Program-made: the position numbers and the translations under genes | Shown here: piece after piece, positions 24,363 to 25,213 of the stretch | Layout of the letters: every line of letters begins with the position of its first letter | How positions within the stretch are numbered: position 1 is the stretch's first letter | Notes under the pieces: generated by a model | What the model saw: the letters and a program-made list of their open reading frames with translations, nothing else | Told to the model about the DNA's origin: nothing | Databases searched by the model: none | Origin: Parafilimonas terrae | GTDB lineage: Bacteria; Bacteroidota; Bacteroidia; Chitinophagales; Chitinophagaceae | Direction: 5' to 3' | Assembly (NCBI RefSeq): GCF_900115755.1 | Contig: NZ_FOXQ01000010.1 | Location: 124,001-188,000, forward strand | DNA: 64,000 nt

Positions 24363-24839
24363 TCACAATTCGTTTTCTGCTACCAGCACATTTCTCGAAA
24401 AACTTTCTTCAAGCGAAATAATAGTGTCTGTTCGTTCAATGCCTTTTATTTTCTGAAGCTCGTCGTGCAGCACAAATTTTAACTGGCTGATGTCTTTGCA
24501 CACCACTTCTGCAAACATGCTGTAATTGCCCGTGGTATAATTAAGGCGCACAATCTGCGGTATCTTTTTTAATTGTGCCGCCACGCTATCGTACAGCGAA
24601 CTTTTTTCAAGATAAATGCCAATGAATGCAATAACATCGTAGCCGAGGATTTTAAAATCGATATTGAATTTTGTTCCCCGCACAACGCCAAGCTCCTGCA
24701 TTTTTTTAATGCGCACATGAATGGTACCGCCGGAGACGAACAGTTTCTTCCCAAGGTCGGCATAAGAAATATTGGCATTGTCCACCATAGCCTGGATTAT
24801 CTGAAAATCCAGTTTGTCAAGATTTAATTTACCGGTCAT
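24363..24839 (-). CDS. Lrp/AsnC-family transcriptional regulator
   Basis: 158 residues from the ATG at 24839. It has an N-terminal helix-turn-helix (LDKLDFQIIQAMVDNANISYADLGKKLFVSGGTIHVRIKKM) and a C-terminal RAM effector-binding domain (from about 65). An exact -7 box TATATTTG (24870-24877, minus strand) overlaps the longer frame's TTG start, so the ATG at 24839 is the right one. Such proteins sense amino acids. It is divergent from the tRNA-like RNA at 24988. Confidence 0.92.
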   Translation of the reverse strand: MTGKLNLDKLDFQIIQAMVDNANISYADLGKKLFVSGGTIHVRIKKMQELGVVRGTKFNIDFKILGYDVIAFIGIYLEKSSLYDSVAAQLKKIPQIVRLNYTTGNYSMFAEVVCKDISQLKFVLHDELQKIKGIERTDTIISLEESFSRNVLVAENEL

Positions 24840-24929
24840 ATCAGCAGGTGATTTTAGAAAATATTTACTCAAATATATAATCTATTAGACGTTTTCTATA
24901 ATTAAAAAATTTGGCTTGAAAAATTTCTA

Positions 24930-24956
24930 TTGAATTGGTTTTTAGTTTTAATATTG
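24930..24956 (+). promoter_or_regulatory. Candidate promoter of the tRNA-like RNA
   Basis: TTG (24930-24932), a 16-base spacer and TAATATTG (24949-24956, one mismatch to TAnnTTTG) would start transcription near 24963, about 25 bases before the tRNA-like fold. The match is moderate. Confidence 0.45.
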
Positions 24957-24987
24957 CACTGCAAACGCAATTAGTTCTTATACATAC

Positions 24988-25158
24988 TGTGGGGTGATGA
25001 AATTTTTGGCAGACATGCCCTCTCGTCTCGGGGGTGAGGATTACGGGATAAACAAAATGTAGAGCCGACGTTACTTTTGGTAAGGCCGACCAGGGTTGAC
25101 CACTAAACTTTGCATTTTAGCTAACCGCCTCGTGGAGGTTCGACCCCTCCCCCTACAG
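24988..25158 (+). ncRNA. tRNA-like RNA, class II leucine-type body with a giant insertion in the variable arm
   Basis: All tRNA arms can be traced. The acceptor stem 24988-24994 pairs with 25151-25157 (7 of 7, one G-U). T8 and G9 follow, then a D-stem ATG/CAT (24997-24999 with 25014-25016) and a D-loop matching the leucine pattern GATGAAATT..GGCAGACATGC. The anticodon stem is 25018-25022 with 25030-25034. A variable-arm stem GAGG/CCTC (25036-25039 with 25128-25131) is followed by a T-stem GGAGG/CCTCC with loop TTCGACC (25134-25150), and G at the discriminator; CCA is not encoded. Oddities: the anticodon loop is TCGTCTC, with C instead of U at position 33 and a nominal GTC anticodon. 88 nt (25040-25127) are inserted in the variable arm, and these fold into at least two hairpins (GCC..TTAC/GTAA..GGC at 25064-25086; GGTT..CTAAA/TTTAG..AACC at 25094-25126). 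It is unlikely to decode normally; its role is unknown. Confidence 0.8.
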
Positions 25159-25166
25159 CTTAAAAG

Positions 25167-25213
25167 AGCCTTAGCTTGTGTGATTATGAATGAGTTAAGG
25201 CTTTTTTGTTTTT
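25167..25213 (+). terminator. Intrinsic terminator of the tRNA-like RNA
   Basis: AGCCTTA (25167-25173) pairs with TAAGGCT (25196-25202), followed by a T-run (25202-25207). It begins 8 bases after the tRNA-like 3' end, so the RNA is a free-standing transcript. Confidence 0.8.

Follow-up and report, generated by a model that had tools for sequence, protein, structure and literature searches.

A widespread tRNA-like RNA of Bacteroidota and their phages, a probable platform for tRNA-dependent asparagine synthesis

What could be the function of an RNA that folds like a complete tRNA, carries an aspartate anticodon and has lost features of its anticodon loop needed for codon reading? This question is raised by a locus of Parafilimonas terrae (Bacteroidota; Chitinophagaceae), located in the 64,000-nucleotide stretch of DNA analysed here (contig NZ_FOXQ01000010.1, positions 124,001 to 188,000; hereafter the window, whose numbering is used throughout). 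The tRNA-like RNA occupies positions 24988..25159 of the + strand, as do all of its parts described below, and runs from position 1 to C74, with G73 at 25158 and an encoded C74 at 25159. Our covariance model R1 matched 24987-25159 in the window with 179 bits (E 6e-49). The acceptor, D, anticodon, variable and T stems, which a sequence-only reading had placed at 24988-25158, were all found to be present. The acceptor stem TGTGGGG/CCCTACA consists of a 5′ strand at 24988..24994, where U1 and G2 pair with A72 (25157) and C71 (25156), and a 3′ strand that, together with G73 and C74, covers 25151..25159. It is followed by a leucine-type D arm (24997..25016; 3-bp stem ATG/CAT, GGCAGA loop) and the anticodon arm CCCTC-TCGTCTC-GGGGG (25018..25034), in which G34, U35 and C36 lie at 25025-25027, U37 at 25028 and C38 at 25029, and position 33 is C. 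The extended variable arm (25036..25131), with inserted hairpins at its tip, is composed in order of stem V1 (GAGG/CCTC, 25036-25039 / 25128-25131), a 4-nt bulge, stem V2 (CGG/CCG, 25044-25046 / 25125-25127), the internal loop GATAAA/CTAA (25047-25052 / 25121-25124) and a variable tip, and it bears a conserved hairpin of the long type, AGGGTTGACCACT, at 25092..25104. The T arm is GGAGG-TTCGACC-CCTCC (25134..25150). C74 is also gene-encoded in the ordinary tRNA genes of the same genome, and the CCA end of the RNA would presumably be completed post-transcriptionally as for those genes.

The RNA was then compared with known families, including the intron-bearing tRNAs, tmRNA and Rfam families by which its novelty might have been refuted, and it was recognised as a member of none. 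At this locus, ARAGORN reported neither a tRNA nor a tmRNA, and Rfam searches at gathering and permissive thresholds gave chance matches only; the Rfam tRNA model detected 41 ordinary tRNAs in the genome, with the tRNA-like locus not among them. The cloverleaf helices, the T loop and the D-loop GG of the tRNA family (RF00005) are present, while the U33 and purine 37 of a decoding tRNA are missing. tmRNA resembles this RNA in joining a tRNA-like domain to inserted RNA, and certain phage tRNA arrays contain both, but the RNA described here has a complete anticodon arm and was not matched by the ARAGORN tmRNA search or the Rfam tmRNA models. On the phage contigs L230, L237 and L251, tmRNA genes stand beside tRNA arrays and the tRNA-like RNA. 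An intron-bearing tRNA was rejected, as the unusual loop is also found in minimal members that have no large insert, and no Rfam intron match was obtained. A pyrimidine at 24987 is able to pair with G73, which together with the invariant C74 raised the possibility of an 8-bp acceptor stem with a C discriminator; this was discarded since ordinary tRNAs encode C74 too and some members have A at position -1.

The folding energy of the window RNA as a single sequence is ordinary (z -0.88), so that proof of the RNA rests on comparison. By blastn, the RNA was present in 37 of 61 relatives. In an alignment of 33 homologues, the six tRNA-type helices (acceptor, D, anticodon, two variable-arm and T) were 99.7% paired, ranging from 98 to 100% per helix (acceptor, V1 and T 100%, V2 98%), and two-sided changes occurred in 71 cells over 13 pairs, which are the compensatory changes that the sequence-only reading had proposed to look for in relatives. 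Five of these pairs are in the acceptor helix and five in V1 and V2 together. None of 500 shuffles matched the observed pairing, and slid registers were just ~50-60% paired. The anticodon stem covaries as CCCTC/GAGGG, CCCCC/GGGGG, CCCAC/GTGGG and CCCGC/GCGGG, V1 varies across members as GAGG/CCTC, GGAG/CTCC and GAAG/CTTC, and V2 as CAG/CTG, AAG/CTT and ACG/CGT. A decaying or chance tRNA relic, or the remnant of an integration site, would agree with the ordinary folding energy; it is refuted by this pairing and strong covariation and by deep conservation in hosts and phages, and we regard it as practically excluded. A separate observation concerns the locus L079 (G000:C20:60953 onwards), where a normal tRNA-Arg is followed downstream by two almost identical, aberrant copies resembling tRNA-Arg(tct), which are perhaps integration-site duplicates; one of them has a tRNA score of 35 bits, which is weak.

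The covariance model identified 54 positives among 296 Bacteroidia genomes at E below 1e-15, weaker matches of 80-95 nt resembling ordinary tRNA-Leu. Matches to a DNA pattern were obtained in Chitinophaga, Dyadobacter, Cyclobacterium, Algoriphagus, Marivirga, Fulvivirga, Saprospiraceae and others. In IMG/VR, the anticodon-arm pattern occurred in 86 contigs, most with the full RNA, many with tRNA arrays and a few of them also close to a tmRNA; the window sequence had no match in the named phage and plasmid collections, though the IMG/VR contigs have many. These results confirmed a genuine, widespread RNA of Bacteroidota and their phages.

To describe the invariant positions, 253 distinct members were tallied. 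G73, U1-A72 and G2-C71 were each found in 252 of the 253, and the GUC anticodon with C38 in all of them, GUC and C38 being filter criteria for this set, part of which was found with a pattern fixing GTCTC and leaving position 33 free; in the 68 members found by homology with the loop left open, the aspartate determinants were equally invariant. Aspartate identity depends strongly on G73, G34, U35, C36 and C38 and to a minor degree on G2-C71 (PMC9976931), and the RNA has all five strong determinants. As for the first pair, U1-A72 takes the place of G1-C72. U1-A72 lets GatCAB amidate Asp-tRNAAsn (PMC9976931), and G1-C72 and U20a of tRNAAsp are antideterminants for this enzyme (PMC9976931, PMC4206432). 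Both marks of a GatCAB substrate are found in the RNA, namely U1-A72 and the lack of U20a, position 20a being A throughout the family and never U. Among the ordinary tRNAs of the same genome, only tRNA-Asn and tRNA-Gln have U1-A72, and tRNA-Asp has G1-C72. The invariant bases suggest charging with aspartate and its subsequent amidation to asparagine. Of the three amino acids proposed for charging by the sequence-only reading, aspartate is thus retained, and the other two are disfavoured: charging by LeuRS is argued against by G73 and charging by SerRS by the leucine-type geometry of the variable arm. The RNA shares with bacterial tRNA-Leu the D arm with its 3-bp stem, A20a, two unpaired bases past the variable stem and the T arm, but differs in having G73 rather than A73, GUC, U1-A72, a variable arm longer by ~10 to >100 nt and a loop unfit for decoding. 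With tRNA-Asp it shares G34, U35, C36, C38, G73 and G2-C71, and it departs from it in its class II (leucine-type) body, U1-A72 instead of G1-C72, U37 and the lack of U20a.

Position 33 was U in 194, C in 42 and G in 17 of the 253 members, and position 37 was U in 251, C in one and G in one; the variable position 33 and U37 imply that codon-reading features have been lost. The missing U33 noted at first therefore holds for the window copy, with C33, and for some lineages, not for the family as a whole. The GUC anticodon and the U33 of those 194 members would be explained if the RNA were a missense tRNA, placing Ser, Leu or Asn at Asp codons. We consider this role very improbable, since 59 members including the window copy have C or G at 33, position 37 is a pyrimidine nearly throughout, an ordinary tRNA-Asp is present in the genome, and G73 and the variable-arm geometry oppose LeuRS and SerRS, respectively. 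A set of AspRS determinants and a GatCAB mark joined in one RNA would instead make sense for an Asp/Asn carrier that never reads Asp codons.

The genomic distribution of GatCAB, judged by a GatB search, gave a second line of evidence. GatB was present in 37/37 RNA-positive relatives and in 54/54 RNA-positive Bacteroidia genomes; within the family of P. terrae, it was found in 30/30 RNA-positive and 0/7 RNA-negative genomes. All 61 relatives have AsnRS, and almost every RNA-positive one also has GlnRS, so that GatCAB is not needed there for Asn-tRNAAsn or Gln-tRNAGln. Among the 116 GlnRS-positive genomes of the class, 35 had both the RNA and GatB, none the RNA only, eight GatB only and 73 neither (p 2.6e-22, kinship ignored). 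The eight with GatB only all belong to family f33 (G071, G112, G147, G175, G201, G225, G247 and G269), whose GatB is divergent and scores more weakly (about 1e-105 vs 1e-160). As expected, nearly all GlnRS-lacking genomes had GatB whether or not they carried the RNA (19 with and 158 without the RNA; 3 lacked GatB). Both states occur within each of the families f1, f23 and f59, which indicates that the RNA and GatB came to be present or absent together on more than one occasion. One RNA-positive genome, G044 (locus L036), has no GlnRS; there, tRNA-Gln and the RNA would both depend on GatCAB.

The usual account of GatCAB beside AsnRS and GlnRS is a relaxed AspRS that aspartylates ordinary tRNA-Asn. 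Organisms that combine AsnRS, GlnRS and GatCAB are known to include some with amidation on ordinary tRNA-Asn, and this gene set has been reported in Bacteroidetes genera (PMC4206432). A non-discriminating AspRS could accordingly supply GatCAB with ordinary Asp-tRNAAsn, as in Bdellovibrio, leaving the RNA with another aminoacyl job such as that of a donor in envelope or peptide chemistry. That precedent and the U1-A72 of the genome's own tRNA-Asn speak for this explanation. However, it leaves unexplained both the joint loss of the RNA and GatB (the 30/30 versus 0/7 split) and the combination of U1-A72 with GUC, C38 and G73 in the RNA itself; moreover, the examined AspRS of the genome is of the bacterial type with a GAD domain. 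We therefore judge it improbable.

Upstream of the RNA, a divergent gene on the - strand (24363..24839) encodes an AsnC-type transcriptional regulator with the Pfam domains AsnC_trans_reg and HTH_AsnC. Its best NCBIfam model is AsnC (155 bits vs 47 for Lrp), a score short of the curated cut-off for AsnC (227). This divergent neighbour recurs at 109 bacterial loci. Among the relatives, the regulator was found in 36/37 with the RNA, in most cases next to it and in divergent orientation, and in 4/24 without it. The region between the two genes (24870..24987, +) contains AT-rich repeats and a candidate Bacteroidota -7 box, TAATATTG, at about 24949-24956 with a TTG upstream. A TAnn(T/A)TTG box was found in 98 of 108 intergenic regions, and TTCAA-N4-16-TTGAA in 28 of the 108, compared with 2.7 in shuffles; the AT-rich TTCAA/TTGAA-type repeats could be an Lrp/AsnC operator. 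Downstream of the RNA, a candidate intrinsic terminator read from the sequence (GCCTTA...TAAGGC and a T run, 25165..25207, +) has a weak hairpin with a long loop (GCCTTA...TAAGGC-TTTTTT) that was not called in the terminator scan. A terminator of its own, as first proposed for this locus, is thus weak in the window copy, and stronger hairpins with T runs occupy the corresponding place in relatives (e.g., L008 and L009). At 20 bacterial loci, a TrmB-like protein is encoded downstream on the same strand at a median distance of 237 nt (e.g., L167:4561-5394), a putative tRNA m7G46 methyltransferase by its sequence resemblance.

Taken together, the tRNA-like RNA is probably a dedicated, non-decoding platform for tRNA-dependent asparagine synthesis; of the roles considered at the outset, that of an aminoacylated RNA with a use other than decoding is favoured by the invariant bases, the lost decoding features and the genomic links. 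The RNA would be transcribed from the promoter region common with the AsnC-type regulator, probably under its control, with the regulator sensing asparagine, and would be processed and CCA-tailed in the manner of a tRNA. AspRS would read G34-U35-C36, C38 and G73 and load aspartate, and GatCAB would read U1-A72 and convert the RNA-bound aspartate into asparagine. A loop with U37 and without a constant U33 would make the Asn-RNA inefficient on Asp codons and thereby keep asparagine out of Asp positions, and the asparagine would then be released or handed on. Several observations weigh against this function: the pair at 1-72 is U-A and not the G1-C72 that helps seat tRNAAsp in E. coli AspRS; the near-invariant U37 (251/253) goes beyond identity needs; and AspRS and GatCAB would have to tolerate the long leucine-type variable arm. 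In addition, GatB and GlnRS occur without the RNA in G048, G058 and family f33, an AsnC homologue is present in the RNA-less G035, G038, G043 and G048, and phage copies of the RNA have no AsnC nearby.

The search for asparagine synthetases bears on the same question. Neither AsnA nor an AsnB above the cut-off was found in ten relatives, three of them incomplete genomes, and all ten carry the RNA (10/37 RNA-positive vs 0/24 RNA-negative, p 0.004, kinship ignored). The lone weak AsnB match of G029 is nearer to a lasso-peptide cyclase. The genome of P. terrae has a strong AsnB match, which also counts against the platform function, and the RNA is hence not its sole possible source of asparagine; AsnB is also kept in many RNA-positive genomes.

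This retention of AsnB fits the main rival explanation, namely that the RNA is a regulatory mimic. In charged or uncharged form, it would bind AspRS, GatCAB or both and would either modulate these enzymes or signal the Asp/Asn status, but asparagine would not be made on it stoichiometrically. The identity set and the co-occurrence with GatB and AsnC fit such a mimic equally, and the large variable-arm domain and the near-invariant U37 exceed the needs of a substrate; U37 is not accounted for by the identity argument, so that the loop could also pair with a target. On the other hand, GatCAB is kept in all RNA-positive genomes despite AsnRS and GlnRS in nearly all such relatives, a retention that a mimic does not explain, and the genomes lacking asparagine synthetases are all RNA-positive. 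On this balance the mimic appears unlikely, and a platform for asparagine synthesis is preferred.

Two-step synthesis of asparagine on tRNA-Asn and tRNAs diverted from decoding are already known. In staphylococci, a non-proteinogenic tRNA-Gly serves cell-wall bridges outside decoding; it is alike in being a tRNA withheld from decoding for amino-acid chemistry, and unlike in its amino acid, its pathway and its normal size. The tRNA-Asn route of Deinococcus, Thermus and Bdellovibrio, with a non-discriminating AspRS and GatCAB, would share aspartylation followed by U1-A72-directed amidation. There, asparagine is made on the tRNA-Asn (GUU) that also decodes, and a relaxed AspRS is required, whereas the RNA described here would be a separate non-decoding molecule with an Asp anticodon, open to charging by a discriminating AspRS and linked to a regulator of its own. 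A search of open-access texts on Bacteroidetes tRNA-like RNA, GatCAB, AsnC and tRNA-dependent asparagine yielded no prior description, and neither Rfam nor this literature contained a non-decoding RNA set apart for converting Asp to Asn. As far as these searches reach, the RNA represents a new RNA family that occurs in many genera, is overlooked by tRNA finders and is borne by phages. We lean towards the broader view that Bacteroidota and their phages possess a whole class of non-decoding tRNAs solely for Asp-to-Asn conversion, of which phages bring their own copy and which would explain GatCAB beside AsnRS and GlnRS. For Bacteroidota, the RNA offers an alternative to the relaxed AspRS: a purpose-built molecule in which the marks for AspRS and GatCAB are joined and those for decoding are gone. 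If so, tRNA-dependent amino-acid synthesis would be physically apart from translation, aminoacyl-RNA chemistry could be used for metabolism without the risk of mistranslation, and genomes without asparagine synthetase would have a source of asparagine.

The variable arm differs most among members. The 88-nt insertion noted at first is present in the window copy; across the family it is lineage-specific and ranges from ~10 nt to >100 nt, and this variability marks it as an outgrowth of the variable arm. At its base, GATAAA and CTAA motifs are conserved in 238/253 and 236/253 members. Two size types were distinguished, a short one (median 123 nt in total) and a long one (median 160 nt) bearing the conserved hairpin GGGTTGACCAC, and a motif like this hairpin was found in 182/253 members. 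At a guess, AspRS, GatCAB or some other factor might dock on the extension. Both types occur at 10 bacterial loci, and tandem short- and long-type pairs (L059, L060, L064, L017/L039 and L022/L040) suggest two sub-functions. In phage copies (L221-L305, e.g., L237, L251, L261 and L274), GGTTGACCAC is often followed by a perfect palindrome, which was not seen after GGTTGACCAC in bacterial copies. The palindromes vary in sequence (GCTAGCTAGC, GCCGGCCGGC, GTTGCAAC and GCGCGC), and those of at least 8 nt were found in 18 of 37 phage copies versus ~4 in shuffles; they could form a tiny hairpin or a kissing or dimerisation site.
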